A stretch of 41,445 nt of DNA, taken from Draconibacterium sp. Lineage in GTDB: Bacteria; Bacteroidota; Bacteroidia; Bacteroidales; Prolixibacteraceae. The notes under the pieces are model-generated. The model did no database searches. It saw only the letters and a program-made list of their open reading frames with translations, and had not been told where the DNA came from. The stretch covers positions 1 to 41,445 of the forward strand of contig WOYV01000012.1 in the NCBI GenBank assembly GCA_011620585.1, in the 5' to 3' direction. Shown here in pieces: positions 10,454 to 29,300 of this stretch (position 1 is its first letter; every line of letters starts with the position of its first letter). A program made the position numbers and the translations under genes.

Positions 10454-13400
10454 CTATCTGTTGTTAATTAATTGTTCCAGTTTGTTCATCATGTCTTTTA
10501 TGTTCGGGCCCAGGGCATCGGTCATTGCGTTTTTTTGAATGGTTAGTGCATCAACCATAAATTCGAGGTGTTCGATTTCAGCAAAGCGTTTGCCTTTAGA
10601 GCCGGCTTTTTTCCAAAGTTCACTGATATCAGTAATGATCGTATCGAGGTACTTTTGTGTATGAAATTTTGAGAAGTTCAGAATGTACCGGCACAGTTTA
10701 ATATTGATAGCTTTTATCATATCCCAGTAATCCATTACCTCGATGTCGGCTGGCAATTCCAATTCAACCTTTCGCAGATCTTTTAATGCTTCATTTACCA
10801 AAGGAAGCTGGTATTCGCCTTTTGTGGTTTTAATACGATCTTCCCAATTTCGTTTTCCGGCCAAAACCAGAATACTTTCGAACACTAACCAGTTGGTAAG
10901 CGAATACCAATTGTTGAACCGCGAATAAGCATCGTGATAATAAAATGCAGCAATTTCGTACGTCTCTTGTTTTTGCGTTTTATCTTTTATCAAATAAGCT
11001 TTTCGTTTGTAGGTACTTCCCAAAATATTCATCCGCTCGGGGCTTGGGTTTAGTTTCATCAAATCATCCAGCTCTAAAATAATTTTATCAATTTCTGCTA
11101 AGTAAGCTTTGGTTCCGGTTTTATTTTCGCGGTACTTTTCAATAATCCTCTTTGCTTTTACATTATAATATTTCTCGAAACTCGAGAACGAAAAAGAGGC
11201 GCTTTTATCGGTTAGCAGGCTTTTAAACTTCTCACATGCCAGGTCGTAATCCTTTAGTTCCATGTAAATTAAAGCTTCCAACCCGGTAATTTTCGAATTA
11301 CGAACATTCGCAGTATCTACAGATGATGAAATAATATTTAGCTGTTCGAGGTATTTTTCCGTTGTATTGGTTCCAATTTCGAGCGAGCTTTGCAGGTTTT
11401 CGAGATCGATTTCTGCTTCCTGTGGAATAAGATAAGATTTTCTCTGGTCCTTACTTTCCGGTTTTCTGAACCGGTAATACGGGTCGCCATAGGCCTGGTA
11501 AGCGCCCCAGGTATTGGTGTAGCTAAACTTTTGAAAAACCGATATTCGCGCTTCTTTTACTGCCTCACCAAACGTTTGCCCATCGGTCATTCGCTGATAA
11601 AACACTTCGGCAAACTCCAAAGCAGCCTGGTCATCAACCGCCCAGCCAGCTGCAATTACGCAGCGTGTTCCGTTGTTTATCAGTTGCGTGCCGATATTGG
11701 CGGCCAGTTTAAATCTCTCCTGGTACAATTCTTCGGCAACGCCATCGCTTTTGCCGAGATGGCAACAGTTTACAAAAACAAACTCGGGAACGGCGCTCAT
11801 TTGCCGGATTTCGCGCGTGGACAGATACATGTTTTTCCCGATAACCATTCCCGACCCTTTCGAAGCATCTTCGTGGAATACCCCGTGCCCGGAAAGGTGG
11901 ATGATTTTGTATTCGTCGCCAAATAGTTTTTCAATTATTTCCGAATGGCCCTCGTTAAAACTGTGGCAAACTTCGAGCCCGGTGGCATTGAGTATTTGTG
12001 TAACTTTTTTGCCCTCGGCCAATGCCCCTTTCAATTGCCCGATAAATCCATTCAGGTTTGGGTCGGCAATTACAAGCGCATTCTCTTTTAGTACAGTTTT
12101 TATGGTTTTCCGGTAATTTGGCGTTTTTAACTGTCGGACCATCCCCGACGAAACGCAAATGGGTTTTGTGTCTTTTAAGCCATCCTGCAATAGTTCCCAC
12201 GGATAGGTTGCTGAATACGGATCGAGCACCCAAACAATATTGCCATATCGTTTCAGTTCGTCTTTGAAATCGTTGGGAATCAGCATCTCAAACATTGTTT
12301 TGGCCCGTTTTGGCGTCCACGATGAATTGGTTGAAATTTCTTCGATGGTTTCTTCCATCAGGTCGGGCGAAGTAAAAAGCGATTGTTGTTCTTCGCGTGC
12401 GCTTTTGGTCGATGTACTGAACCTCAATTCACGAATTCCTTCTGTTCTTTCTTCAACCGTTATGCGGTTCCACCACTCTGAGGTAGCGTCGAGCGGAATT
12501 CTTTTTTTCGATCCCAGTAAAGAAATGATTCCCTTTCCCTCTCTTTCAATTTTGAAGGAATTCGATTCGTCCTGCTGAATCCGGTGAATGGAAAATAAAC
12601 TATTGGCAGCTTTATCTTCAAATACTTCCACAAACTGAAGATGTCCGACAATGGGTGTGCCTTCAGAATTGAGTTCACTAATCCGCACATTTGCGTTATA
12701 CACTCCCTGGATAATTGCCCGAATAGAATTTTCGATAACCAAACCTCCATAACCGCATCCGATTATCAACGACGAAAGCCCTACAACTTTTGATTCGTTT
12801 TCTTCATTTTCGGCAGAAACAGTATTCTTCTGAAAATCGAAGAGATAATTGATTACTCCCGTTTCCACTGTTTTGGTCAACTCGCCCGGAGTTAACTTTT
12901 CGAGCCGCCCCAGTCCGAGAATAATCGCTCCTTTAAACCCTTTTTCATGGGTAAGAAAGATCCTGCTTTCTTTAATCTTTCCCGGGTAATTTCCCAGTTG
13001 CAGAAACTGGCCCAGCATTCCGTCTAAATTATTATCGATCTGTTTTTCTGCATACAAAATACTGTCGTCTTCGAAATGGCCGGCCAATATCGGATAAGTG
13101 GCATACGCCAGGTCGCCCTGGCAAATAGATACTTTAATTGGAGGCACACTGGTTGTTTTTTTTGCTTGCTTCCGTGTTAGATTGAGTAAGGGATTATCGA
13201 CTTCAACCCTGGTCATATCGAAATCGCGCCCCTCGATTGTCCTTACTGGTCCCGTTGTAAAGCCGGGCAATTTTTCACCCCAGTTAATTGTGAGCGCCTC
13301 TAAAATGGCTTTGTTTGTGGCGCTGTTCTCGAAATATTTGAAATGATTAATTCCTTTCCCATCATAAAAGAATTCCTGTATTTTCCCGGTCCTGCGTGTG

Positions 13401-14713
13401 CCCAATGCCATCGAAACCGAATCTACCACAAGATCATTCTCTCGCCTGAAAAACAACTTGCCGGCAATGATTACCAAAGCCTGAAGATTAAATTCGAAAT
13501 TCGAATTCCCTGAAATAACCACCAGCGAGTTATCAATTTCCAAGGCCCCGGGAATGTTCCATCCGTTAAGCGCTTTAATAAATGGAGAATCAGGTCGTTG
13601 AACTTCGAGCCCTGGTAGCGCTTTTTCGTTATTTTTTGTATCGATCACTGCCGCAACCAGGTTTTTTAAAGCAATATAAACCGGGTTGGCCGACATTCCG
13701 GTCCCCCAGCCAATCAGGTTCGACAAAATATTGAAAAAGTTATCAAGACGTTTCGATGCCAGGGTTGTTCCACCGGCCGGACATGCAATCCGCACAAATT
13801 TTTCGACAACTACATTTCTTGTCGATAATTCCTTTTTTATGTCATTGATATCAGAAAGCAATGAATTAAAGTAATTGTCGGAATATTCTTTTTTCAGGAA
13901 TTCCAGTTCGGCGTTTGTAAACCCTTTCTCTTCTCCCCTGCTATTGCAAAACCGCGATAATACCTCGCCAACCAAACCTCCACGCGAAGCGCTTACCAGA
14001 TGAAGCTTGCATTTTGGAGGTAGCTGCCGAACAAGAAGTTTTACGTTTTGAACAGGGTTTTCGGTGAGGGTTCGGTGTTGAAATGCCAAAATCCGGTTGT
14101 CGTAACGACTTTTCAAAAAGTTCATCAGGTCAGTTCCCTGGATTTTTTCAAAAGAACCCGAAGTTGACGAGGCAGTGCCATGAATAAAAAGGCAGAATGG
14201 CTTTTCCTCGCTTTCTTTTTTGTAATCGAGCAACTGAAAATCGGGGGCCAATCTGAAAAGACCGATTTTTTCTTCCAGTTGTTTGTCTTCGAGTTCGCCG
14301 GCCAGCTTTTCTACTCCAATTTGAACCGCCTTTTTTGTAAGAATATTTACAATTTTCAGAAGTACTTTTTTAACAAGGCCCCTTTCACCGGTTTCGGCGC
14401 TTATTTCTGTTGGAATAACAACCTGTGTTTTCCCTTCGCGGGTCGGTTTGATTGCCTCCGGAAAAATTTCCTGCATTGTATTTGTATTCGACAACCAGGT
14501 AGTCCCGTCTTCAAAAACAAATTCAACCACGTCTTCATCGTTCAAGGGAATGCTGTGGCTTTTTGATTTTCCGCGATCGCTCCTTCCGATTTTGAAAGAG
14601 CGTGAAACAGTTAACAAACTTCCGGCTTGCTGGCTGGTGGCATCAACGGGTTGTTCTGTTCCGCTAAGTTTAATTTCATTTACTTTCATATACTGAATTA
14701 CTGATCGCTCCAT
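10454..14713 (-). CDS. CHAT-domain caspase-like protease with N-terminal alpha/beta-hydrolase and C-terminal helical repeats
   Basis: A 1419-residue protein from the ATG at 14713 (MERSVIQ). Residues 1-160: a beta-rich region I do not recognise. Residues about 165-480: an alpha/beta-hydrolase-like domain with the oxyanion HGT (H178) and a nucleophile-elbow-like SASRGG (S243), where the first Gly of GxSxG is Ser. Residues about 530-690: resembles the N-terminal domain of M17 leucyl aminopeptidases (GAIILGLGRLEKLTPGEL). Residues about 815-1115: CHAT domain with the His-Cys dyad H943 (HLSGHG) and C984 (NCCHLG). Residues about 1130-1419: TPR-like helices. CHAT proteins are caspase-related cysteine proteases; several act in bacterial immunity or programmed death. 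It is first in a two-gene unit with the amidohydrolase. The layout suggests an activated effector, but no sensor domain is recognised. No signal peptide is visible. Confidence 0.85.
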   Translation of the reverse strand: MERSVIQYMKVNEIKLSGTEQPVDATSQQAGSLLTVSRSFKIGRSDRGKSKSHSIPLNDEDVVEFVFEDGTTWLSNTNTMQEIFPEAIKPTREGKTQVVIPTEISAETGERGLVKKVLLKIVNILTKKAVQIGVEKLAGELEDKQLEEKIGLFRLAPDFQLLDYKKESEEKPFCLFIHGTASSTSGSFEKIQGTDLMNFLKSRYDNRILAFQHRTLTENPVQNVKLLVRQLPPKCKLHLVSASRGGLVGEVLSRFCNSRGEEKGFTNAELEFLKKEYSDNYFNSLLSDINDIKKELSTRNVVVEKFVRIACPAGGTTLASKRLDNFFNILSNLIGWGTGMSANPVYIALKNLVAAVIDTKNNEKALPGLEVQRPDSPFIKALNGWNIPGALEIDNSLVVISGNSNFEFNLQALVIIAGKLFFRRENDLVVDSVSMALGTRRTGKIQEFFYDGKGINHFKYFENSATNKAILEALTINWGEKLPGFTTGPVRTIEGRDFDMTRVEVDNPLLNLTRKQAKKTTSVPPIKVSICQGDLAYATYPILAGHFEDDSILYAEKQIDNNLDGMLGQFLQLGNYPGKIKESRIFLTHEKGFKGAIILGLGRLEKLTPGELTKTVETGVINYLFDFQKNTVSAENEENESKVVGLSSLIIGCGYGGLVIENSIRAIIQGVYNANVRISELNSEGTPIVGHLQFVEVFEDKAANSLFSIHRIQQDESNSFKIEREGKGIISLLGSKKRIPLDATSEWWNRITVEERTEGIRELRFSTSTKSAREEQQSLFTSPDLMEETIEEISTNSSWTPKRAKTMFEMLIPNDFKDELKRYGNIVWVLDPYSATYPWELLQDGLKDTKPICVSSGMVRQLKTPNYRKTIKTVLKENALVIADPNLNGFIGQLKGALAEGKKVTQILNATGLEVCHSFNEGHSEIIEKLFGDEYKIIHLSGHGVFHEDASKGSGMVIGKNMYLSTREIRQMSAVPEFVFVNCCHLGKSDGVAEELYQERFKLAANIGTQLINNGTRCVIAAGWAVDDQAALEFAEVFYQRMTDGQTFGEAVKEARISVFQKFSYTNTWGAYQAYGDPYYRFRKPESKDQRKSYLIPQEAEIDLENLQSSLEIGTNTTEKYLEQLNIISSSVDTANVRNSKITGLEALIYMELKDYDLACEKFKSLLTDKSASFSFSSFEKYYNVKAKRIIEKYRENKTGTKAYLAEIDKIILELDDLMKLNPSPERMNILGSTYKRKAYLIKDKTQKQETYEIAAFYYHDAYSRFNNWYSLTNWLVFESILVLAGKRNWEDRIKTTKGEYQLPLVNEALKDLRKVELELPADIEVMDYWDMIKAINIKLCRYILNFSKFHTQKYLDTIITDISELWKKAGSKGKRFAEIEHLEFMVDALTIQKNAMTDALGPNIKDMMNKLEQLINNR

Positions 14714-15192
14714 ATTCAACTCCTGGCAGGCTTCTCACTATTGGGTAATTTCTGTGTTGTCCGGCGTTTCACTATCTCTTTTCGACTGTTAACTTTGCGA
14801 AGCAAGTTTTCGAAACGACAATACAAATCGATAAAGTTGCTTCCATCTCCTGCTTTTGAGAAAGGACTAAATAAGCAGGCAAAATTGTTTAAACATCCAT
14901 AACAACAGGGCTACATCGATTTAATCTTCGCAGCAAATAAAACTTCTTTGACATTTTGATTTAATGGTCATGTCTGAAACAAGTTACAGAAAATTAAATT
15001 AAGAGTCAATGCTCCACTAATATTTAGCAACGATTTGCAAGATCACTGAATTACCCCATTTTGAAGGTAACGGTTACGGAGAAAAGGAAAAAGCAGCTAC
15101 CAGGCATTTAGTAACAGGCTTAACCGGTTGACCGGGGCTGTTAACAGGTTGGTTGAAATATTAGTGACTGAGTAAATGAACTTAACGGGCAT
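14714..15192. other. Gene-poor AT-rich interval upstream of the CHAT gene
   Basis: About 480 bp with no convincing ORF on either strand. It must hold the CHAT-operon promoter on the minus strand, but no clear TAnnTTTG box in the right orientation was found. A plus-strand TAACTTTG occurs at 14790-14797. A small inverted repeat GTAAC-G-GTTAC lies at 15067-15077. The stretch may be scar sequence of earlier insertions. Confidence 0.5.
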
Positions 15193-18185: not shown

Positions 18186-20885
18186 TTATTTCCACTCAGG
18201 AAGAATACACTTGGCGCTTCTTTTTTTTAGTAAATCATCAAAATGATTGAGGTTTTTTTGCATTACATCCGATTTTTCATCGTGGCAAGTGAGGCAGGCG
18301 CCTACCGTGAGGGTTCGTTGTTGCTGATCGACATTTAACGGAAATACATCTGAACGCGTGGAAACCTTTCCTTCGCGGGTTTGCAAAAAATCGATCCAGG
18401 CATCTGCAGGCAAGCCGTCGTTTTTATCTGCTGCATATAAAGCCTGGAATTCCCATTTCCCTTTTCCGTTTTCGATAAGGTATTCCAGTTTCCCTTCGCC
18501 ATAGCCCAGCGCCAGCGGGTTGTTGTGGCAGCTCACACAGCTTCTTCCTTTCGAAGAAGTGGTATGTGGGGCAGCCGGTGCATACAAGCGATGAAAGATT
18601 GTGCCATCCTGATTATCATTCGTAAACGATTTCAGATCGGTCGTCATAATCATTCCCGGGAGTACCGGAATAATTTCGGTTTTCCCTTCATTTTTTCGGT
18701 TCCCCAAAGTAGGGAGTTTTGCTTTGTATTCCCCAATATATTCAACCCACGATCCAGTCTGTTCGTGATTTTTGATCATGTTGTACCCGCGTTCGTTCGC
18801 ATCGTACTCGTTATGACAGCCAATACAGGTGGGCGCCCAGGCCGTGTGACAGCTCGAACAGGCCAACCCTGAATGTGCTTCATTTCGGGAACAAACCGCT
18901 GCAGGCGCTTTCATCGCCATTTTCTTTCCGGTATTTTTTGTCAAAAACCAAATCGAGTCGTTTTCAAAGTATGTGTTTATTAGTGCCCGTTTATGTTTCT
19001 CGGTTACCAGGAATTCTTTTCCCGAGATATTTCCAAAACGTAAAGCTGCAATAATCGCTGATTCGTTATCCAGATTTTCTGCAGCAATCGTGCGGGGTTC
19101 ACCCTCGATGTGGCAGTCGGAACATTGCACATCCTGCTGGTTCTCCTGGTGTGAGTAATGTGTTCCGTCTCCCATCAGTTCGTACGAGTGGTGACAGTCG
19201 ATACATTCCATTCCCAACTCATGATGCACATCAGCCGGTTGTTTTACAAAAACACGTTCATTCTCGATCAACCGATAATTGCTGCTATCGGGCATTTCGC
19301 CGGCAAGGAGCGTAGTTTCGTGCCAGCCTTCGTAATTGGTAGATATCCTGCCCGAGCGGCTGTGGCATCCAAAACAATGATTGTTGCTTACTTTCAGGCT
19401 AATTTGAGGATGTGTGTTAATCATTTCACCAGTATTGCCAGCCAGCGCTTTTTCAGCTTCCGGACTGTAATTCAAATGACAAGCCAAACATCCTCCGCCT
19501 CTGCTAAATTCATTAATCGGCCCAAGCTCTGTTTTCGGATTTCCTAAGTGGCATCGCACGCACAAGTTCCGAAGGTGTTCGTCGGCTGGAGAATCTCCAA
19601 GCTGGTGGACATTGGTAAGACTATCGGGATTGTCCTGTTCGTTAAATACAAAGCGGTCGACACTGATCATCCCGCTTAAAGTCGACATTAAACCTGTAGG
19701 GACCCGTTCCACAATTTCGGGGTGACACTGTGTTGTGCCACATGTTTGAGGCGCGGTGGACAGGTTCCCCGGTATCAAAATCATGTTTTGGTGCGACTGC
19801 TTTTTATCGGTGGCAAATGGATTTCCAAGGTGACACGAAATACAGCCGATGGCTTGTGCTGCGTGCGAATCGGTAAAGCCATGCGTTTCGTTATGGCACG
19901 CGAGGCAACTTTCTTTTCTTCCCCGAACGACCGGCGCTGCTATCCCGACCTCAAGTGTGAAGTCGGGTGTGAAATCGATCCCCGGAGTTCTGAAATTGTG
20001 TAACACGCTGTATTTGTATTCTTCGTTCCAGGGCATGGCCCACTTCCAGTTTTCGCCTCTGAAAAACAGCCCTGTGAGCGTTAAAACGGAATATGCAATA
20101 GTGAAGATAAGCAAGGTTCGTTTGCTCCGGAACATGGTTTTATCTTTCGTCGTATTTACAAGATACACCAAAATCAAAATGCCCAGAAACAGTAATAACG
20201 ACCATGCCGGGTGCTGAAGCCAATGCAGTATTTCCTGGAACCCCACAAAATACCAGGGCCCTTTTACAGCAGGGTTTAAGTTATCGTGCAAAGGCGCACT
20301 CAGAAAATAGCTGATCAGCAGGGTCCCAAAAGTTGAAAGCACAAAATCGGTAGCTGGTGGCCAGTATTTTCGACTGTGTTCGACCATGGCAATGGCAATA
20401 AAAACCGTGAAAGTGGCAATGTGGTGAACGTAAATAAGCTGGTAACTATCGGCATCGCCAAGTATCGAGTATGCAAGTGATTTTCCAATTAATGGAATTC
20501 TTTCGGCCAGCGTTTGAAGAATCTGACGGGCTTGCAAACTATCAGCATCGCCTTTCAAAAGGAAACCGGTGATCATGGCCAGAAAAATAATCAGCAACGA
20601 AAAACTGAGGCGGAAAGCCAACCCAGGCTTTAACGCAATCTTGCCTCGACGGTGGAAATGATCGTACAAATGAATAAGGCTCAGTAAAAGAAAGAATTGT
20701 GAGCTCCAGTAATGAAAATTTCGTATAATCGATGCCCAGGGATTCAGTACCATTATGCTGCTGATACTCAAATACGGATCTTTTATATCGAAAGGAATGG
20801 CCAGAACAACACCCGACAAAACCACGAGCCAAAACATGGCAAGCGCCAGTGTCCCAAAAGTCGTCTTATTTTTTTTCTGTTTCAT
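18186..20885 (-). CDS. Cytochrome b6-type membrane domain fused to a dodecaheme-type cytochrome c
   Basis: An 899-residue fusion. Residues 1-285: cytochrome b-like membrane part with two b-heme His pairs, H-x13-H (FHYWSS...LIHLY) and H-x14-H (HIATF...MVEH), the latter spacing as in cytochrome b6, followed by more hydrophobic helices. The rest is a multiheme c domain with eleven CxxCH sites (CLACH, CISCH, CVRCH, CLACH, CFGCH, CIDCH, CSDCH, CSSCH, CIGCH, CVSCH, CLTCH) and one CxxxxCH (CGTTQCH). It follows the Rieske gene directly, so the two probably form a quinol-oxidising Rieske/cytochrome b complex that sends electrons to periplasmic hemes. I chose the ATG at 20885; the frame to 20897 would need a TTG and overlap the Rieske stop. 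The electron partner is unknown. Confidence 0.88.
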   Translation of the reverse strand: MKQKKNKTTFGTLALAMFWLVVLSGVVLAIPFDIKDPYLSISSIMVLNPWASIIRNFHYWSSQFFLLLSLIHLYDHFHRRGKIALKPGLAFRLSFSLLIIFLAMITGFLLKGDADSLQARQILQTLAERIPLIGKSLAYSILGDADSYQLIYVHHIATFTVFIAIAMVEHSRKYWPPATDFVLSTFGTLLISYFLSAPLHDNLNPAVKGPWYFVGFQEILHWLQHPAWSLLLFLGILILVYLVNTTKDKTMFRSKRTLLIFTIAYSVLTLTGLFFRGENWKWAMPWNEEYKYSVLHNFRTPGIDFTPDFTLEVGIAAPVVRGRKESCLACHNETHGFTDSHAAQAIGCISCHLGNPFATDKKQSHQNMILIPGNLSTAPQTCGTTQCHPEIVERVPTGLMSTLSGMISVDRFVFNEQDNPDSLTNVHQLGDSPADEHLRNLCVRCHLGNPKTELGPINEFSRGGGCLACHLNYSPEAEKALAGNTGEMINTHPQISLKVSNNHCFGCHSRSGRISTNYEGWHETTLLAGEMPDSSNYRLIENERVFVKQPADVHHELGMECIDCHHSYELMGDGTHYSHQENQQDVQCSDCHIEGEPRTIAAENLDNESAIIAALRFGNISGKEFLVTEKHKRALINTYFENDSIWFLTKNTGKKMAMKAPAAVCSRNEAHSGLACSSCHTAWAPTCIGCHNEYDANERGYNMIKNHEQTGSWVEYIGEYKAKLPTLGNRKNEGKTEIIPVLPGMIMTTDLKSFTNDNQDGTIFHRLYAPAAPHTTSSKGRSCVSCHNNPLALGYGEGKLEYLIENGKGKWEFQALYAADKNDGLPADAWIDFLQTREGKVSTRSDVFPLNVDQQQRTLTVGACLTCHDEKSDVMQKNLNHFDDLLKKRSAKCILPEWK

Positions 20886-20886
20886 T

Positions 20887-21270
20887 TCAGCCCTCAATGG
20901 TTAATGTAGTGGCATCTTCCGAAATGCTGGCTTTCATTTCGGTTAAGTCGCGGTAGGCAGGTCCTTTCAAAACTTTTCCTTCCAAATCGTATTCCGAACC
21001 GTGGCATGGACACACCAGGCGATCGCCCTGCATTTTATCGATTTTACAGCCAAGGTGCGTACAATGTGCCGAGAAGACACGGATTTCAGGTTTCGTTACC
21101 ACAATAAAACCGCCGTTAAAAGCCACTGTTTTATTTTTATTGAAAGGGAATGTGTGTTGTTTCCCGGAGCTCGTTCGAAGGTGCTGAAGCGTGAGTTTGT
21201 TCCAAACAAAAACAAAAAAGGCAACAGCTCCTGTAATAGCAATTTTTAAAAATGTCCTTCTGCCCTTCAT
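20887..21270 (-). CDS. Rieske [2Fe-2S] protein of a cytochrome b complex
   Basis: 127 residues. The N-terminus has a twin-arginine-like motif (GRRTFLKIA) followed by a hydrophobic segment (about residues 10-25), so it is probably a Tat-exported and membrane-anchored periplasmic protein. The two cluster-binding boxes are CTHLGC and CPCHGSEYD, giving two Cys and two His ligands plus the disulfide Cys pair of bc/b6f-type Rieske proteins. It is first in the operon; the cytochrome b ATG lies 1 bp after its stop. Together they resemble the core of a quinol:cytochrome oxidoreductase. It is divergent from the molybdopterin oxidoreductase operon, so the two units may be co-regulated from the shared 522-bp spacer. 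Confidence 0.93.
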
Positions 21271-21792: not shown

Positions 21793-24048
21793 ATGAAAAC
21801 AAGACGGGATTTTATTAAAATTTCAACAGCGGGTGCCGGTGCGGCAGCTTTGAGTTTTAAAGCTTTTGGTTCGGAAGGTTTCAGCCTTTTTGGATCAAAA
21901 TCGGATGGCCCGGTAAGCGATGAAGACCTGACACCTTATGCAACTTATTGCGAAGTATGTTTCTGGAAGTGTGCGGGCTGGGCTTATGTCGACAAAAGTG
22001 GCCGTATCCGGAAAGTAATTGGCAACCAGGACGATCCACACTGTAATGGTCGTTTGTGCCCGCGCGGAACCGGAGGTGTGGGAATGGTTTACGACGAAGA
22101 TCGTTTAAAAACCCCGCTCATCCGCGAAACTCGTTCCGACGGGTCACAATACTTCAGGGAAGCAAGCTGGGAAGAAGCGTTGGATAAAGTAGCCAACAAA
22201 ATGAAAGAGGTGAAGGAAAAACATGGTCCGGAGGCATTTGGCCTATTTAACCATGGTACTCCGGGTGCAATGCTCGAGCATTTACTTCGTGCCTATGGGT
22301 CAGAAAGTAATGCAGAGCCTGCATTTGCCAACTGCCGCGGCCCACGGTCTTCAGCGTTTTATTCGACTTACGGCGCCTACGTGGGTTCTCCTGAAAATAC
22401 CGACATTCGCGATACAAAATGTCTTGTTCTTATCGGATCGCACATTGGAGAAAACATGCATAACTCGCAGGTGCAGGAAATGTCGGAAGCCATTGATAAT
22501 GGAGCTACTATAATTACAGTCGACCCAAGATTATCTACCGCTGCCGCGCACTCTCAATACTGGCTGCCCATTAAACCGGCCACCGATATTGCTCTGATTA
22601 TGGCGTGGATAAACGTATTAGTAAACGAAGGATTGTACAATAAAGAATATGTCGAGAAATATACTTTCGGCCTTGATTATCTAAAAGATCATGTAAAAAC
22701 AATGACCCCGGAATGGGCTTATGGAATTACCACCATCGAGCCTGAAATGATTCGCAGAACGGCTCGCGCCATGGCAAGTGCAGCTCCGGCAGTGGTTGTT
22801 CATCCCGGACGTCATGTGGTTTGGTATGGCGACGATACACAGCGCTCGCGTGCATTGGCTATACTGGCTGCTTTATTGGGTTCATGGGGCAAGCGTGGCG
22901 GGTTTTATTTCCCCGAAGGAGTTTCGGTCCCAAAATTTCCACATCCGCATTATCCCGAACCGGAATGGACCTGGAAAGACTGGAACGATGGTAAATTTCC
23001 TTTGGCAACAATGGGTATTACCACCGAACTATTAAAAGCATCTATACCAGGATACAACTATAAACACCAGGTTAAAGCCTGGTTGGTGGCAGGTACCAAC
23101 CTTCCGCTATCGATGCCGGATAAACCACTGTTTAAAGAAGCTGCTGCTTCGGTTGAATTTATTGCTGTAATGGATACCATGCCAATGGATATCACAGGAT
23201 ATGCCGACGTAGTTTTGCCTGAAGCAACTTATCTTGAGCGCTACGATGCCATTCGTTCAGCTCCAAACCGCGAGCCGAATATCGCTTTGCGTATGCCGGC
23301 CATCAAACCAATGTACGATTCGAAACCGGGATGGTGGATCGCCAAACAAATTGGTGAACGATTGGGGCTACACGATTACTTTAATTACAACGATTATTCA
23401 GAAGTAATCGACTGGCAGTTGAAGCAACTGGGTACTTCGCTGGAAGAAATGAAAAAAGTTGGGGTGAAGAAATACCCAAGAAAATCGGGCCCACTCTATC
23501 TTGGAGATGGAGAAGATTTCACTTTCAATACCAATACCGGTAAAATCGAGTTGTATTCAACTGACTTTGCCGACCATGGTTTCGATCCGATGCCAAAATT
23601 TACCAAGCATCCCGAACCACCACAAAATTTCTACCGCCTGATTTACGGACGCGCACCGATGCATACATTCAGCCGTACTTCAAACAACCATAATTTGTGG
23701 GATTTGATGAGCGAGAACAGTGTTTGGGTAAATCCAAAAGTAGCCGATCTGTGGCAGTTAAAAAAGGGCCAGGAAGTTTGGTTAAAAAATCAGGATGGAC
23801 ACGTTACCTCGTTCCCGGTAAAAGTTCGCGTAACTGAAAGAATCCGCTGGGATTCGGTATACATGGTCCACGGATTTGGGCACAATAACAAGAAGCTTTC
23901 GAGAACGTTTGGCCGCGGCGCCAGCGATACCGAAATGATCACGAATGTGGTAGTTGATCCAATAATGGGCGGAACCGGAATGAGGGGAAACTTTATAACA
24001 TTTCTAACAGAAGAACCTGCATTGGAGGGAAAGGAGGATAAAGCATGA
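21793..24048 (+). CDS. Molybdopterin oxidoreductase catalytic subunit, polysulfide/thiosulfate reductase (PsrA/PhsA) type
   Basis: 751 residues. A Tat signal (KTRRDFIKIS) is followed by an Ala-rich hydrophobic stretch, so the folded cofactor-loaded protein is exported. An N-terminal [4Fe-4S] motif C-x2-C-x3-C-x28-C runs from CEVCFWKC to GRLCPRG. A Cys near residue 181 (ANCRGPRS) is a plausible Mo ligand, close to the position in PsrA. The C-terminal part ends in the dinucleotide-binding domain (IYGRAPMHTFSRTS). With the FeS and NrfD-type subunits downstream it forms a CISM-type membrane complex linked to the quinone pool. Sulfur genes behind it favour polysulfide, thiosulfate or tetrathionate as substrate; direction and exact substrate are not settled. 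It overlaps the next gene by 4 bp (ATGA). Confidence 0.88.
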   Translation: MKTRRDFIKISTAGAGAAALSFKAFGSEGFSLFGSKSDGPVSDEDLTPYATYCEVCFWKCAGWAYVDKSGRIRKVIGNQDDPHCNGRLCPRGTGGVGMVYDEDRLKTPLIRETRSDGSQYFREASWEEALDKVANKMKEVKEKHGPEAFGLFNHGTPGAMLEHLLRAYGSESNAEPAFANCRGPRSSAFYSTYGAYVGSPENTDIRDTKCLVLIGSHIGENMHNSQVQEMSEAIDNGATIITVDPRLSTAAAHSQYWLPIKPATDIALIMAWINVLVNEGLYNKEYVEKYTFGLDYLKDHVKTMTPEWAYGITTIEPEMIRRTARAMASAAPAVVVHPGRHVVWYGDDTQRSRALAILAALLGSWGKRGGFYFPEGVSVPKFPHPHYPEPEWTWKDWNDGKFPLATMGITTELLKASIPGYNYKHQVKAWLVAGTNLPLSMPDKPLFKEAAASVEFIAVMDTMPMDITGYADVVLPEATYLERYDAIRSAPNREPNIALRMPAIKPMYDSKPGWWIAKQIGERLGLHDYFNYNDYSEVIDWQLKQLGTSLEEMKKVGVKKYPRKSGPLYLGDGEDFTFNTNTGKIELYSTDFADHGFDPMPKFTKHPEPPQNFYRLIYGRAPMHTFSRTSNNHNLWDLMSENSVWVNPKVADLWQLKKGQEVWLKNQDGHVTSFPVKVRVTERIRWDSVYMVHGFGHNNKKLSRTFGRGASDTEMITNVVVDPIMGGTGMRGNFITFLTEEPALEGKEDKA

Positions 24049-24578
24049 GATATGCCATGGCAATTGACACAAACAAGTGTGTCGGGTGTGGCGACTGTGT
24101 AGTCGCCTGTCAAACAGAAAATAATGTCCCGCATGGCTATTGCCGTGACTGGATTGTGGAAAGTGTAGATGGGACCTATCCGAGCCTTAGCCTTGAATTC
24201 CGTTCGGAACGTTGTAACCATTGCGATAATTCGCCATGTGTACGTTGCTGCCCAACCGGTGCAAGTCATATCGAAGAGGGTGGGATTGTAACAGTAACCC
24301 ACAACAAATGTATTGGTTGCGGAGCCTGTATCGAATCGTGCCCTTACGATGCACGTTATTCGCATCCTGACGGATACGTAGATAAGTGTACTTTCTGTCT
24401 TCACCGCGTTCAGAAAGGTCAAAAACCTGCCTGTGTGGAAGTTTGTCCAACCAAATGTCTTCATTTTGGAGATTTGGATGATCCGAACAGCGATGTTTCA
24501 TTGGCTATTAAAGACCGTAAATGGAAAGTGTTGGCTCCCGAAGCCGGTACCGATCCACAATTATATTTTCTTACCTAA
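24045..24578 (+). CDS. Four-cluster ferredoxin subunit (PsrB/NrfC type)
   Basis: 177 residues carrying 16 Cys in four [4Fe-4S] motifs: CVGCGDCVVAC, CNHCDNSPCVRCC, CIGCGACIESC, and CTFC with CVEVC after an insert. It conducts electrons between the molybdopterin subunit and the quinone-linked NrfD-type subunit. No signal peptide is present; such subunits are carried across by the Tat signal of the catalytic partner. The start overlaps the stop of the catalytic gene by 4 bp, indicating translational coupling. Confidence 0.93.
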   Translation: MRYAMAIDTNKCVGCGDCVVACQTENNVPHGYCRDWIVESVDGTYPSLSLEFRSERCNHCDNSPCVRCCPTGASHIEEGGIVTVTHNKCIGCGACIESCPYDARYSHPDGYVDKCTFCLHRVQKGQKPACVEVCPTKCLHFGDLDDPNSDVSLAIKDRKWKVLAPEAGTDPQLYFLT

Positions 24579-24598: not shown

Positions 24599-25540
24599 AT
24601 GAAAGAAGAATTATTTGTAAGTGGAAGAAATATTCCGAATATTGATCCTTACCTCAATATCTGGCACTGGCAGATCCCTTTGTATCTGTTCCTTGGAGGT
24701 TTGGCTGCAGGTATCCTTTTCTTCGCCGGATTTTATACCGTCCGCGGAAAAGCAAATCAAATGCCGGCAACGGTTAAATTAGCTCCAATCCTGGCGCCCA
24801 TTGCTTTAGTACTGGGTTTGTTCGCCTTGTTCCTCGATTTGAAACATAAACTCTTTTTCTGGCAGTTGTACACCACCATTCGTTTGGAATCGCCAATGGG
24901 TTGGGGCTCCTGGACTCTGATGATTATTACTCCCTTGTCGTTTATATGGGTTGCCAGTTATATGAAAGAACTTATACCCGGCTGGAACTGGAAATTTAAT
25001 ATTCTCGAAAGGTTTGAAGCTTTGGTCATCAAATACAGAGTGGCGCTTGCCTGGGTTATGATGATCTATGCAATAATACTTGGGGTTTATACGGGAATTC
25101 TGCTGTCGGCCTTCAATGCCCGACCACTTTGGAACACATCCATCCTTGGGCCGTTGTTCCTTGTTTCGGGTTTTTCAACCGGGCTTGCAACTATCATCTG
25201 GATAAGTAAAGATGCGAAGGAACGAAAGAAGCTGAGTCGTATCGATTTGGTATTCATTTTTGTTGAATTATTTCTGATCGTCCACCTCTTTATGGGATTC
25301 AAAGCCGGATCGCAAACCGCAATTGAAGCAGCAAATCTCTTTCTTGGAGGACCTTTTACGGTAAGTTTCTGGGTGTTTGTTGTAATTCTGGGCCTGGTTT
25401 TTCCGGCAGTGCTCGAAACGCTTGAGTTGTGGGGCTACCACGTTCCGAAATGGTTGCCGCCTGTAATGATTTTGATTGGTGGACTGATGTTCCGTTTTAT
25501 TATCGTTGAAGCCGGTCAGATAACACGATATTTGTATTAA
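24599..25540 (+). CDS. NrfD/PsrC-type integral membrane subunit
   Basis: 313 residues with about eight hydrophobic helices, beginning with a helix after NIWHWQIPLYLFLGGLAAG, which is typical of NrfD/PsrC. It anchors the FeS and molybdopterin subunits and exchanges electrons with menaquinone. Charged and polar residues within helices (for example FLDLKHKLFFWQLY) are the kind used for quinone contact. It lies 20 bp after the FeS gene and 17 bp before the first YeeE/YedE gene, so it is in the same operon. Confidence 0.92.
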   Translation: MKEELFVSGRNIPNIDPYLNIWHWQIPLYLFLGGLAAGILFFAGFYTVRGKANQMPATVKLAPILAPIALVLGLFALFLDLKHKLFFWQLYTTIRLESPMGWGSWTLMIITPLSFIWVASYMKELIPGWNWKFNILERFEALVIKYRVALAWVMMIYAIILGVYTGILLSAFNARPLWNTSILGPLFLVSGFSTGLATIIWISKDAKERKKLSRIDLVFIFVELFLIVHLFMGFKAGSQTAIEAANLFLGGPFTVSFWVFVVILGLVFPAVLETLELWGYHVPKWLPPVMILIGGLMFRFIIVEAGQITRYLY

Positions 25541-25557
25541 TCCGAAAAATTATAATC

Positions 25558-26094
25558 ATGAGTAAAGATAAAATTATTGATAATCAGTCGAAATACATCA
25601 ACCCATACCTGGGCGGGGTGTTACTGGGGCTGTTAATTTTACTGACCATATACATTACCGGTCGTGGATTGGGGGCTAGTGGGGCGATCAAAAGTGCGGT
25701 AGTAAGCACCTCGAATACAATTGCACCTTCGGCAACACAAGCCAATGCCTACATGGGGCAGTTTGTTAGTGACGATCATTCGCCAATGTATACCTGGCTG
25801 GTATTCGAATCGCTGGGTGTTTTGCTGGGTGGACTGCTTTCGGGATTGATCTTTGGCAGAGTAGGTAGGTTCAGAACTGACCATGGGCCAAAAATTACTG
25901 CAAAGAAACGTTGGTTATTAGCCTTACTGGGTGGTGCGCTATTCGGAATCGGAAGTCAGTTTGGACGTGGATGTACCAGCGGGGCTGCATTAAGTGGTAG
26001 CGCAACGTTTGCATTTGGAGGCGTGATTGTGTTGTTTGGCATATTTGGTACCGGATACGTGATCGCTTACTTTTTCAGAAAACTTTGGATATAA
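25558..26094 (+). CDS. YeeE/YedE-family sulfur transporter, half-size protein 1
   Basis: 178 residues, about four membrane segments. The conserved YeeE/YedE element GSQFGRGCTSGAALSG contains the Cys used in the thiosulfate pathway of the full-length transporter (TsuA). The protein is about half the usual length. The following gene encodes the complementary half, so the two probably assemble as a heterodimeric channel. The N-terminal part has a loop of about 45 residues between the first two helices. The position right after the Psr-like subunits suggests transport of thiosulfate or reduced sulfur to or from the complex. Confidence 0.85.
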   Translation: MSKDKIIDNQSKYINPYLGGVLLGLLILLTIYITGRGLGASGAIKSAVVSTSNTIAPSATQANAYMGQFVSDDHSPMYTWLVFESLGVLLGGLLSGLIFGRVGRFRTDHGPKITAKKRWLLALLGGALFGIGSQFGRGCTSGAALSGSATFAFGGVIVLFGIFGTGYVIAYFFRKLWI

Positions 26095-26114: not shown

Positions 26115-26717
26115 ATGGGACCATTAATTCCTAACGGTGTAATTGGAGCAGGATGGGATTTTGTAATCGCAATCTTAATCGGGATAGCATTCGGTTTTAT
26201 CCTGGAGGCTTCCGGTTTCTCCTCGTCGAGAAATTTAGCCGGAGTATTTTACGGATATAATTTTGTAGTACTTCGGGTATTTTTCACTGCATTAATTGTG
26301 GCCATGGTTGGCCTAATGTATTTCGATTTTGTGGGTTGGCTCGACCTTTCCAAAATATTTATACTTCCTACTTACCTGGCGCCAATGGTTGTTGGCGGTA
26401 TTATTATGGGTTTTGGTTTTGTAATCGGCGGCTTCTGCCCGGGAACCAGTTTTACAGGTATTGCCATAGGTAAGCTCGATGCGTTGTTTTTTACCATCGG
26501 ACTTTATTTAGGTATCTTTGGTTTTTCTCTGGCTTTCCCACTTTTCGAAGGCTTTTACAACAGTGGCTCGATGGGGAATATAACCCTGACTGATGTAACA
26601 GGTATTCCTGCCCCATATTTTGCATTGGCATTTACAGTAATTGCCCTGGCTGCTTTCTGGGGCACCATGTTTATCGAGAAAAAAGTTAGAAAGAATATGA
26701 AACAATATAAATTCTAA
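26115..26717 (+). CDS. YeeE/YedE-family sulfur transporter, half-size protein 2
   Basis: 200 residues, about five or six membrane segments. The element GFVIGGFCPGTSFTG carries the conserved Cys of the family, and FGFILEASGFSSSRN is the usual motif of the first helix. It is 20 bp after the first half-transporter. The two halves differ clearly in sequence, so this is not a recent duplication. The second rhodanese-like gene pair follows after 4 bp, so transport and sulfur handling appear to be made together. Confidence 0.87.
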   Translation: MGPLIPNGVIGAGWDFVIAILIGIAFGFILEASGFSSSRNLAGVFYGYNFVVLRVFFTALIVAMVGLMYFDFVGWLDLSKIFILPTYLAPMVVGGIIMGFGFVIGGFCPGTSFTGIAIGKLDALFFTIGLYLGIFGFSLAFPLFEGFYNSGSMGNITLTDVTGIPAPYFALAFTVIALAAFWGTMFIEKKVRKNMKQYKF

Positions 26718-26721
26718 GCTG

Positions 26722-27333
26722 ATGAACAAGAATTATATAATTCTTACAATATTAATGCTCGTTCTTGCAGTCGGGACCTTATTTCTCAGGATGAGCAATG
26801 AACCTAAGCAAATCGACCCCGAAGAATTGCTCCAGGAGATTATCCAACCTACTCGATATGTTACCACCGACCAGGTGGCGAAAATGATCATTCAGGGAGA
26901 TCCATCGCTGATGTTGATAGACGTTCGATCAACCGATGAGTACATAGAATATACCTTGCCTGGTGCAGTCAATATTCCGCTTGAAGATTTGCTCGTGGAA
27001 GACAATTTATTGTACCTGGGAATTCCCGGCAAGAAAGTTGTTTTTGTTTCAAACGACGATATAAAAGCCGATCAGGCCTGGGTACTCACCAAACGTTTAG
27101 GATACGGAAGTACTTATGTACTTAAAGGCGGGATCAACTGCTGGATGCAAACCATCATCGATCCGCAACAACCTGAAGAAACCGCAGCTGCTACCGATTT
27201 CGAGACTTATTCTTTTCGTAAGGGGGCACAAATGTACTTTACCGGAGCCGGATCAGATGACGGTGGCAGTAACCAGGTGAATGTCCAGGTACAACGTCGT
27301 CAGAAATCAAATGTCGCGGCAGGTGGCTGTTAA
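26722..27333 (+). CDS. Membrane-anchored rhodanese-fold protein A with C-terminal GGC tail
   Basis: 203 residues. One N-terminal membrane helix (about 5-22) precedes a rhodanese fold, placing the domain in the periplasm. Family motifs are visible: LIDVRSTDEYIEYTLPGAVNIP (CH2A-like, residues about 73-94) and VLKGGINCW. The active-site loop, which normally holds the catalytic Cys, reads VVFVSNDDIKAD, with no Cys. The other Cys residues are in INCW and at the very last position. The last 16 residues, VQVQRRQKSNVAAGGC, are identical to the end of the next gene. I infer that the terminal Cys, not the rhodanese loop, carries sulfur. It lies 4 bp after the YeeE/YedE gene and 22 bp before its paralogue. 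Confidence 0.85.
   Translation: MNKNYIILTILMLVLAVGTLFLRMSNEPKQIDPEELLQEIIQPTRYVTTDQVAKMIIQGDPSLMLIDVRSTDEYIEYTLPGAVNIPLEDLLVEDNLLYLGIPGKKVVFVSNDDIKADQAWVLTKRLGYGSTYVLKGGINCWMQTIIDPQQPEETAAATDFETYSFRKGAQMYFTGAGSDDGGSNQVNVQVQRRQKSNVAAGGC
27283..27330 (+). other. C-terminal Cys tail, copy 1
   Basis: Encodes VQVQRRQKSNVAAGGC directly before the stop. Copy 2 at 27938-27985 encodes the same 16 residues, with 11 of 16 codons different and every difference synonymous. Confidence 0.9.
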
Positions 27334-27355
27334 TAAACACTAAAATTAGACTATT

Positions 27356-27988
27356 ATGCATATACACGAATTAAATCCCTGGAGAACTTTAATTGCGCTT
27401 TCTGCTTTTATTGTAATTCTGATTATTGGGTTGATAACCATGCCTAAGCCATTGCTGAAGTATGAAAAAACTGTAGACGAAAGTGTTAACGCGCTTGTTG
27501 AATCGGATGCCTATTTTTACCCGTGGGAACTGGAGCAGGTAATTGCTAAAGAAACCGATACGATCGTTCTTTTCGATCTCAGGAATAACTTTGTCTTCGG
27601 ACAAGGACATATCCCGGGAGCAGAAAATCTATCGGCAAGTGTTTTAAGCCGAAAAGAAAATATCGAGCGCATGAAAAAGCTTCGGGACCTGGGCGTAACA
27701 GTGGTTCTGTATGGTGATAGCGAGCTCGATGCTAATGGCCCCTGGATGTTATACCGTCAGGTAGGTTTCAACAATGTAAAGCTTTTACTCGGGGGATATC
27801 GTTATTATTTCGAACATAAGGACGACTTGTCTGCAACAATCAACGACGATGGTTACAAGAGAGGTATTGCACGATACGATTACGCCGAAATGGCTGCTCC
27901 CAAAGATGGCGCTGTACTTTCCGATATTGAAAAACCAGTTCAGGTCCAACGCCGACAAAAATCGAATGTAGCAGCCGGTGGTTGCTAA
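27356..27988 (+). CDS. Membrane-anchored rhodanese-fold protein B with C-terminal GGC tail
   Basis: 210 residues with one N-terminal membrane helix (about 10-30) and a periplasmic rhodanese fold: VLFDLRNNFVFGQGHIPGAENL (about 64-85), loop VVLYGDSELDANG where the catalytic Cys would be, and KLLLGGYRYYF. The rhodanese Cys is absent, and the C-terminal Cys is the only cysteine of the whole protein. A flexible linker of about 40 residues leads to VQVQRRQKSNVAAGGC, shared exactly with protein A, while the two rhodanese domains are strongly diverged. It is the last gene of the operon, ending 53 bp before a terminator. A sulfur-carrier role is inferred from context and tail; no family with an established function was recognised. 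Confidence 0.85.
   Translation: MHIHELNPWRTLIALSAFIVILIIGLITMPKPLLKYEKTVDESVNALVESDAYFYPWELEQVIAKETDTIVLFDLRNNFVFGQGHIPGAENLSASVLSRKENIERMKKLRDLGVTVVLYGDSELDANGPWMLYRQVGFNNVKLLLGGYRYYFEHKDDLSATINDDGYKRGIARYDYAEMAAPKDGAVLSDIEKPVQVQRRQKSNVAAGGC
27938..27985 (+). other. C-terminal Cys tail, copy 2
   Basis: Encodes the same 16 residues as copy 1 at 27283-27330 and supplies the only Cys of the protein. Confidence 0.9.
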
Positions 27989-28136: not shown

Positions 28137-29300
28137 ATGTCACGGATCCTGGTAATTGACGATGAGAGAAGTATACGGAATACCTTAAAAGATATTCTCG
28201 GGTACGAGAAGTATGAAGTGGACCTGGCAGAAGATGGCCAGAAGGGAATAGAAATGATCCATTCGGCGGAATACGATATTGTTTTATGCGATATCAAAAT
28301 GCCCGGACTCGACGGAATAGAAGTGCTGGAGCGTATTGTTGTTTTGGCACCTGATACCCCGGTAGTCATGATATCGGGCCACGGGAATATTGATACCGCA
28401 GTGGAATCGATTAAAAAGGGAGCGTTCGATTATATTGAGAAACCACTGGACCTGAACCGCCTCCTCATTACCATCCGCAATGCGATGGATAAATCAAACC
28501 TGGTTACCGAAACCAAAATTCTGAAAAAGAAAGTCAACAAGAAATACGAGATCGTTGGTGAATCGAAAGCTATTTCCGATGTTATTACAATGGCTGATCG
28601 CGTAGCTCCTACCGATGCAAGGGTGTTGATTACAGGTTCTAACGGAACAGGTAAAGAATTGGTTGCAAGAAGGATCCACGATCAAAGCAACCGGTCTTCA
28701 GGCCCATTTATCGAAGTTAACTGTGCTGCAATTCCATCAGAATTAATCGAAAGCGAATTGTTTGGACACGAAAAGGGAGCTTTTACTTCGGCTGTAAAAC
28801 AACGACTTGGTAAATTTGAGCAAGCAAACGGTGGAACCTTGTTTTTAGATGAGATTGGAGATATGAGCTTGTCGGCGCAGGCAAAAGTATTGCGCGCCTT
28901 GCAGGAAAGTATAATCAGCCGGGTAGGAGGCGATAAACAGATTAAAGTTGACGTTCGTGTTGTAGCTGCTACCAATAAAAATCTGTCGGAAGAAATTGCT
29001 GGAAATAAATTTCGTGAGGACCTTTATCACCGTTTGAGCGTGATCCTGATCAAAGTGCCTACATTGAACGAGCGCATTGAGGATATTCCACTTTTAGCTA
29101 CGCACTTTATTAAACAAATTTGCGGAGAATACGGCATGTCGGAGAAAACCATTACAGTGGACGCTTTAAAAGAACTTCAGAAATTTAACTGGACAGGAAA
29201 CATTCGGGAGTTTAGAAATGTGATCGAGCGTTTGATTATTCTTTGCGATAACGAAATCGATGAAAAGGACGTGCTTAAATATGCTGCTCCTTTAAAATAA
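28137..29300 (+). CDS. NtrC-like sigma54-type response regulator without a DNA-binding domain
   Basis: 387 residues. Receiver domain (1-120) with acidic pocket D8-D9, phospho-acceptor D52 (CDIKMPG) and a late Lys in IEKPLD. The AAA+ domain (about 140-375) has Walker A GSNGTGKE, Walker B GGTLFLDEIGD and the sigma54-contact loop as GAFTSA instead of GAFTGA. The protein ends after the AAA+ lid (NEIDEKDVLKYAAPLK), so the Fis-type helix-turn-helix of NtrC is missing. Such forms may act from solution on sigma54 holoenzyme. No histidine kinase is adjacent. It has its own promoter and terminator, and a link to the upstream sulfur operon rests on position only. Confidence 0.9.
   Translation: MSRILVIDDERSIRNTLKDILGYEKYEVDLAEDGQKGIEMIHSAEYDIVLCDIKMPGLDGIEVLERIVVLAPDTPVVMISGHGNIDTAVESIKKGAFDYIEKPLDLNRLLITIRNAMDKSNLVTETKILKKKVNKKYEIVGESKAISDVITMADRVAPTDARVLITGSNGTGKELVARRIHDQSNRSSGPFIEVNCAAIPSELIESELFGHEKGAFTSAVKQRLGKFEQANGGTLFLDEIGDMSLSAQAKVLRALQESIISRVGGDKQIKVDVRVVAATNKNLSEEIAGNKFREDLYHRLSVILIKVPTLNERIEDIPLLATHFIKQICGEYGMSEKTITVDALKELQKFNWTGNIREFRNVIERLIILCDNEIDEKDVLKYAAPLK

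Follow-up and report, generated by a model that had tools for sequence, protein, structure and literature searches.

A shared Cys-ended tail on paired rhodanese-fold proteins of split-YeeE/Psr operons: a putative sulfur-carrier arm

DsrC/TusE are cytosolic proteins, with a fold unlike that of rhodanese, in which a conserved Cys is located on a flexible C-terminal arm; DsrC itself is defined by a DsrC domain with two C-terminal Cys. The arm of SoxY, which has the letters GGCGG, is likewise located C-terminally, and Sud uses a rhodanese active-site Cys. SoxYZ is described as a carrier in which one Cys on a swinging arm holds the pathway sulfur (PMC5336275) and as a periplasmic complex (PMC11582611). 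The membrane protein YeeE is reported to contain three conserved cysteines, with cytosolic YeeD contributing a fourth (PMC11073785), and PmpA/PmpB are presented as the split halves of YeeE/YedE (PMC11582611). The latter source also holds a relay from the SoxY Cys to the cysteines of SoxT to be conceivable, doubts direct Cys-to-Cys transfer within the pore (~7 A spacing), and regards the handover of sulfane sulfur to YeeE/SoxT-type channels from the outside as poorly understood.

The locus considered here lies in a stretch of DNA of 41,445 nt (the window), which is one entire contig of a 3.94 Mb genome that is 99.7% complete. Seven genes occur in the order psrA, psrB, psrC, yeeE1, yeeE2, rhdA, rhdB (Table 1). 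The PsrA-like protein scores below the curated NCBIfam PhsA cut-off and is assigned as Psr/Phs-like only. The two halves of the split channel each contain one invariant Cys (Cys132 of YeeE1 in 153/153 homologues and Cys108 of YeeE2 in 171/171), and these residues should equal Cys293 and Cys91, respectively, of the S. thermophila channel according to the PmpA/PmpB mapping in PMC11582611. A TusA family protein (PF01206) was not detected in this genome at E 0.01 and is present in 11/14 control genomes; the cytosolic step known for YeeD is therefore missing. Divergent from psrA, positions 18186-21270 of the minus strand encode a Rieske protein and a cytochrome b / multihaem protein by Pfam, and such genes adjoin psrA in many relatives too (L036, L048, L069, L072, L144), which suggests a quinol-linked electron chain tied to the psr-yeeE-rhd operon. 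On the 3' side of rhdB, a gene resembling response regulators/sigma-54 activators is located at 28137-29300 (plus strand), with a relative downstream in L072, L053, and L061. Elsewhere in the window, a 1421-aa ORF (10454-14719, minus strand) resembles, on visual inspection, a CHAT-type protease to which an N-terminal hydrolase-like part has been added.

Table 1. Features of the psr-yeeE-rhd gene cluster, with positions counted along the window
Feature	Position	Strand	Basis
PsrA-like molybdopterin oxidoreductase with probable Tat signal	21793..24048	+	PF00384; TAT_signal 19.2 bits (cut-off 22.7); PhsA model 429 bits (cut-off 694)
PsrB-like 4Fe-4S electron-transfer subunit	24045..24578	+	PF13247
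PsrC/NrfD-like membrane subunit	24599..25540	+	PF03916 E 1.1e-46
YeeE1, C-terminal half of split YeeE/YedE channel (PmpA-like); Cys132 at 25951-25953	25558..26094	+	PF04143 positions 175-309
YeeE2, N-terminal half of split YeeE/YedE channel (PmpB-like); Cys108 at 26436-26438	26115..26717	+	PF04143 positions 4-158; sub-threshold DUF6691
RhdA, 203 aa: N-terminal membrane anchor, rhodanese domain without catalytic Cys, flexible GGC-ending tail	26722..27333	+	ORF; PF00581 E 1e-14; AF2 model
RhdA membrane anchor, residues 6-24	26737..26793	+	hydropathy; AF2 model helix 3-20
RhdA rhodanese domain, residues 48-143	26863..27150	+	PF00581; rhodanese structures matched in Foldseek PDB search
RhdA Ser110, at the rhodanese catalytic Cys position	27049..27051	+	alignment column of 128 RhdA
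RhdA tail VQVQRRQKSNVAAGGC, residues 188-203	27283..27330	+	G202 and C203 among 5 invariant columns (87 aligned RhdA)
RhdB, 210 aa: membrane anchor, rhodanese domain without catalytic Cys, tail as in RhdA	27356..27988	+	ORF; PF00581 E 1.4e-12
RhdB membrane anchor, residues 11-29	27386..27442	+	hydropathy
RhdB Gly120, at the catalytic Cys position	27713..27715	+	alignment column of 82 RhdB
RhdB tail VQVQRRQKSNVAAGGC, residues 195-210, with the sole Cys of RhdB	27938..27985	+	ORF translation

In the ORF translations of the window, the last 16 residues of RhdA and RhdB are identical, although the two proteins are otherwise strongly diverged (49/207 identities by BLASTP, 24%, with the tail counted in). 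These ORFs and their coordinates agree with the initial annotation, which had reported a shared tail on two diverged rhodanese-fold proteins; its count of tail codons, 11 of 16 different with every difference synonymous, is reproduced from the window DNA. Both tails end at Cys, and the cysteine count confirms that this final residue is the only Cys of RhdB, as had been noted, while it is one of two in RhdA. The combination Gly-Gly-Cys-stop occurs 24 times on both strands of the 3.94 Mb genome, and the sole ORFs of at least 60 aa among these occurrences are RhdA and RhdB; the pattern comprises exact GGC endings, so that endings like EGC or GGCx fall outside it. The tail is absent from the six other rhodanese proteins of this genome. 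The sharing of the tail is not due to chance.

The distribution of the tail was assessed in loci fetched with a YeeE2 profile, in which the tail was not part of the query. Of at least 533 relatives in titled genome records, the best 80 were used; they include Bacteroidales, Maribellus, Draconibacterium, Chlorobiota, Ignavibacteria, Neomarinimicrobiota, KSB1, and one Holophagaceae MAG. The initial annotation would have been contradicted if homologues commonly lacked the tail or its Cys, which is not the case: in these 80 loci, the Cys tail is present in 49/49 complete RhdA, 46/47 RhdB, 16/17 YeeE2-RhdA fusions, and 8/11 double-rhodaneses (distinct proteins of sufficient score, none repeated from earlier loci). 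Over all sorted loci, the non-redundant, complete proteins with the tail amount to 126/132 RhdA, 81/85 RhdB, 35/38 fusions, and 12/27 double-rhodaneses. This count took L004-L072 and L103-L222, left out L001-L003 (the window itself) and the short loci L073-L102, and counted proteins identical over their last 100 residues once (288 of 326 kept); the RhdA/RhdB sorting models were built from tailed proteins, which introduces a small bias. Of the six untailed RhdA in the all-loci count, five are short proteins of a second operon type and the sixth is a generic rhodanese; of the four untailed RhdB, L176 alone is a genuine RhdB, the other three being generic rhodaneses of low score. The three untailed fusions are L063; L068, which has the variant GGLCG; and L202, which has an undetermined base near its end and is also the one fusion lacking the tail among the best 80 loci. 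Most tails end in GGC, some in EGC or DGC, and in a few 1-4 residues extend past the Cys (GGCE, GGCG, GGCS, GGCAID). In genome-level searches, the RhdB query had a match in 60 of 101 genomes, and the RhdA profile, run against 395 genomes of the phylum, matched 156 at E 1e-8, in many cases over the rhodanese domain alone.

Several variations on this operon were observed. YeeE2 and RhdA are fused into one polypeptide in an Ignavibacteria genome and in several other lineages (L222, L188, L163, L179 and others; L051, L057). A second operon type without Psr (L055, L065, L070, L071, L241) contains yeeE, with one or both halves in the stretch, and an RhdA ending in GGC/GGCE followed by a short untailed rhodanese, and it adjoins a convergent double-rhodanese lipoprotein. 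A third tailed protein, a double-rhodanese with the same kind of ending, occurs in L064, L031, L177, and L051. Two further candidates were rejected: selenocysteine does not replace the tail Cys in G006, whose internal TGA is upstream of the start and whose tail is GGCE, and the long L111 ORF that resembled a natural YeeE1-YeeE2-rhodanese triple fusion is an out-of-frame extension only. A search of openly licensed PMC literature, with passages of PMC13047784 and PMC12998232, found no description of the tail. The tail is a real, widespread, and unusual feature of split-YeeE/Psr operons.

Pfam assigns one rhodanese domain (PF00581) each to RhdA (55.2 bits) and RhdB (48.4 bits; cut-off 22.2), and hydropathy indicates one N-terminal hydrophobic segment in each. 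A profile of RhdA matches 1qxn_A (deposited as sulfide dehydrogenase; E 1e-5), which we take to be the Sud polysulfide-sulfur transferase of Wolinella, acting beside polysulfide reductase. The loop Cys expected of an active sulfurtransferase is replaced by Ser110 and Gly120 in the proteins of the window, and it is gone in 124/128 RhdA, 81/82 RhdB, and 38/38 fusions. The catalytic column of RhdA (n=128) contains S 112, A 6, G 6, and C 4, and that of RhdB (n=82) contains G 57, A 14, S 5, H 3, Y 1, C 1, and D 1; since four RhdA and one RhdB still have Cys there, the loss is not a strict rule. Four RhdA (L131, L132, L219, L221) have both the catalytic-position Cys and the C-terminal Cys tail. RhdA and RhdB are rhodaneses by fold and, by the residue at this position, are predicted to be catalytically dead. 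Only five columns are invariant among 87 aligned RhdA (D67, R69, G137, G202, C203; the window's RhdA and 86 of the 115 listed), and G395, G396, and C397 are invariant among 34 aligned fusions (34 of 37 listed; L063, L068, and L129, which ends EGC, were left out). The tail Cys is the only Cys in 68/126 RhdA and 50/81 RhdB. Apparently, the chain end has taken over the reactive Cys from the active site, perhaps in one evolutionary event.

The AF2 model of RhdA has a mean pLDDT of 87.6, with values below 50 at residues 178-190 and 201-203 of the tail. In that of a fusion, whose mean pLDDT is 72 and whose membrane part is weakly modelled, five YeeE2 helices are followed by an anchor helix (residues 202-220), then by the rhodanese domain, and finally by a long helix with a disordered end behind it. 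In single-chain models, the tail is found at a pLDDT of ~40-60 and no docking is visible; seating of the tail in the protein's own rhodanese pocket was considered and rejected, as the tail has low confidence in the single-chain RhdA model. Sequence and model together place a thiol at the C-terminus of a mostly basic linker predicted to be disordered, and almost every complete homologue from the operons has such an [X]GC tail with a single Cys beside Gly. Each of the 10 tailed double-rhodaneses with a complete start begins with a lipobox-like sequence (two further ones are cut at the start), so these proteins should be outside the cytoplasm; combined with the fusion and RhdA models and the probable Tat signal of PsrA, this points to the periplasmic side. 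Judged from this anatomy, the tails are probably extracytoplasmic.

The tails of RhdA and RhdB change together within an operon. This was examined in 61 of 79 RhdA-RhdB pairs (<80% identity), with the tail taken as the 13 residues preceding [X]GC. In these 61 non-redundant operons, RhdA and RhdB tails are alike at 7.62 of 13 residues within an operon versus 3.14 between operons; the observed within-operon sum of 465 compares with a largest permuted value of 256, and 0 of 100,000 permutations reach it. When tail B is shuffled, 2.18 residues are matched to tail A, so composition is no explanation. A nearest-relative test on 28 disjoint pairs gave a within-operon match greater than the cross match in 20, less in 5, and equal in 3 (sign p 0.002) for the tail, versus 11, 8, and 9 (p 0.32) for the 13 residues preceding it and 7, 8, and 13 for the 13 residues further upstream. 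There is no significant within-operon excess upstream of the last ~16 residues, and the co-variation is confined to the tail. Over the domains, RhdA is 24.1% identical to its own RhdB versus 58.9% to the nearest RhdA; over the tail, it shares 6.25 residues with the RhdA of its nearest relative, below the 7.62 shared with its own RhdB. The own RhdB provides a better tail match than that of the nearest relative in 39 of the 61 operons, an equal one in 9, and a worse one in 13, and it is the best or tied tail partner among all in only 33.

At identical tail residues, 294 codons are the same and 354 different, with 289.8 same expected from the usage in both genes. As codon sharing is at chance while residues match, the residues are kept and the codons drift, and the 16-residue tag thus represents concerted evolution at the protein level without overall codon sharing. 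Recent duplication or conversion was accordingly rejected as a general cause and retained for single operons such as L064. In L064, 14 tail codons are the same and 1 is different (7.9 same expected), and in L107 these numbers are 12 and 4 (9.2 expected); by their codons, the tails of these two operons look as if they were copied more recently than in most. The initial statement that neither recent duplication nor gene conversion explains the tail therefore stands for recent events in most operons and probably not for a few (L064, L107). Older copying with later synonymous drift may also lie behind the matched tails.

Taken as putative extracytoplasmic sulfur-carrier arms, a reading whose probability is put slightly above even, the tails would operate with a cargo, a direction, and a reader that we infer as follows. 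The rhodanese domain, its own catalytic Cys lost, would serve as an anchored scaffold. The tail Cys would take up sulfane sulfur, as persulfide or S-thiosulfonate, and would pass it to, or receive it from, a client common to the carriers of the operon, most often the two-subunit YeeE1/YeeE2 channel and/or periplasmic PsrA; the conserved cysteines of YeeE1/YeeE2 would then continue the relay. It is proposed that one docking site reads every carrier of the operon, so that the last ~16 residues change together. Because the tail is near-identical though the domains have diverged and lost their sulfur-handling Cys, it is probably an interchangeable sulfur arm.

The initial annotation had similarly proposed a docking and carrier arm read by a common partner, perhaps the Psr-like enzyme or the YeeE/YedE channel. 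The arm itself fits the co-variation of the tails, the lost catalytic Cys, the predicted disorder, and the invariant YeeE cysteines, but neither partner is universal. In the 108 loci whose upstream flank spans at least 5.5 kb, YeeE and Psr occur together in 80, YeeE only in 27, and Psr only in 1. Psr as the sole reader is disfavoured, since no Psr genes are found in the fetched stretch of 27/108 loci, and YeeE as the sole reader is weakened by G396 (locus L107, 99% complete), which contains PsrABC-RhdA-RhdB with the tails present. Two profile searches detected no YeeE in G396, whose contig stops directly after rhdB, so that a YeeE gene may have been missed there. YeeE is preferred as the common client with modest confidence, and PsrA is placed second.

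Of the explanations weighed, the carrier arm is the best supported, and a disulfide tether and a docking or gating peptide rank behind it. In the former, the terminal cysteines would cross-link the operon's proteins either with one another or with the channel, the matched tails aligning for this purpose. Two or three proteins per operon do have matched tails, and the carrier-arm cysteines of SoxYZ are reported to cross-link in vitro (PMC5336275). However, the tail is still kept in the 66/116 distinct loci (flanks of 2.5 kb or more on both sides) that have a single tailed protein, so tail-to-tail cross-linking is not the whole story, and 35/38 fusions are tailed even though rhodanese is already joined to YeeE2 in them; such a tether is considered unlikely. 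The same low probability is given to a docking or gating role, in which the basic tail would bind at the mouth of YeeE or PsrA to hold or regulate that protein, with the Cys being structural or sensing. This would suit tails that are more basic where PsrABC is present (81 loci, mean net charge 5.0) than where it is not (27 loci, 3.1; Mann-Whitney p 0.0009, uncorrected for phylogeny) and a co-variation that spans the 13 residues ahead of [X]GC, yet it is the terminal [X]GC that is most invariant, whereas the charge varies, down to -2.

The occurrence of one short tail on otherwise unlike proteins also recalls a C-terminal sorting, lipidation, or other processing signal, which is rated as very improbable. 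Only RhdA and RhdB end exactly in GGC among the genome's ORFs of at least 60 aa and the fusions are polytopic, making a general sorting tag unlikely; moreover, membrane anchors are already present in the unfused proteins, and 1-4 residues can trail the Cys. Rated just as improbable is a metal-binding or redox-sensor Cys in place of a sulfur carrier: the Cys is frequently alone and sits on a predicted-disordered tail, but the aligned tail has no second invariant metal-ligand residue, and YeeE and/or Psr genes are linked to it in 108/108 loci. The least credible explanation is neutral copying, in which occasional gene conversion or slippage would keep the tails alike without any special role. 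L064 and L107 do exceed the expected codon sharing, and slippage is possible in the Gly runs of L031/L177/L178, but codon sharing overall is at chance with the residues kept, and neutral tails would diverge after synonymous drift; in addition, G202 and C203 are invariant in the RhdA alignment and the ending is kept across many families.

An extension of the carrier-arm reading, held tentatively and as rather less than an even prospect, is that the tail may be a portable carrier tag. By carrying a short Cys-ended linear sequence, an operon protein outside the cytoplasm would become able to donate sulfur to a single docking site; the sequence would act as a lineage-specific key kept in step on 2-3 proteins, whether anchored, channel-fused, or lipid-bound, with rhodanese as the scaffold. 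If true, the tag would stand to YeeE channels on the outside as YeeD does on the cytosolic side. The conserved, co-varying Cys tail on proteins encoded beside, or fused to, these channels in Bacteroidota and related phyla is a candidate for the outside donor.

Compared with the described systems, the RhdA/RhdB tail resembles the SoxYZ arm in having one Cys on a flexible arm as a putative sulfur carrier. Unlike that arm, it extends from a rhodanese fold, is mostly basic, and in most homologues stops at the Cys itself; in addition, the same tail recurs on several paralogues of an operon. Apart from rhodanese, a Pfam scan of RhdA/RhdB at E 0.01 gave nothing but a sub-threshold holin match in RhdB, with neither a SoxY domain nor a DsrC match in either protein; unlike DsrC, the two proteins have a single C-terminal Cys. 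RhdA shares the rhodanese fold with Sud, whereas the catalytic residue in the RhdA/RhdB family is mostly Ser, Gly, or Ala and the Cys is located at the C-terminus. In TsuB/YeeD, a Cys protein partners the YeeE channel (TsuA/YeeE), as is proposed for RhdA/RhdB; however, YeeD is cytosolic and TusA-like, whereas RhdA/RhdB look extracytoplasmic and occur in a genome in which no TusA was found. Finally, YeeE1/YeeE2, a predicted channel, are split in the same way as PmpA/PmpB, with PF04143 halves and one invariant Cys each, but are accompanied by tailed, putatively dead rhodaneses and often by PsrABC, and in some cases the PmpB half is fused to rhodanese.
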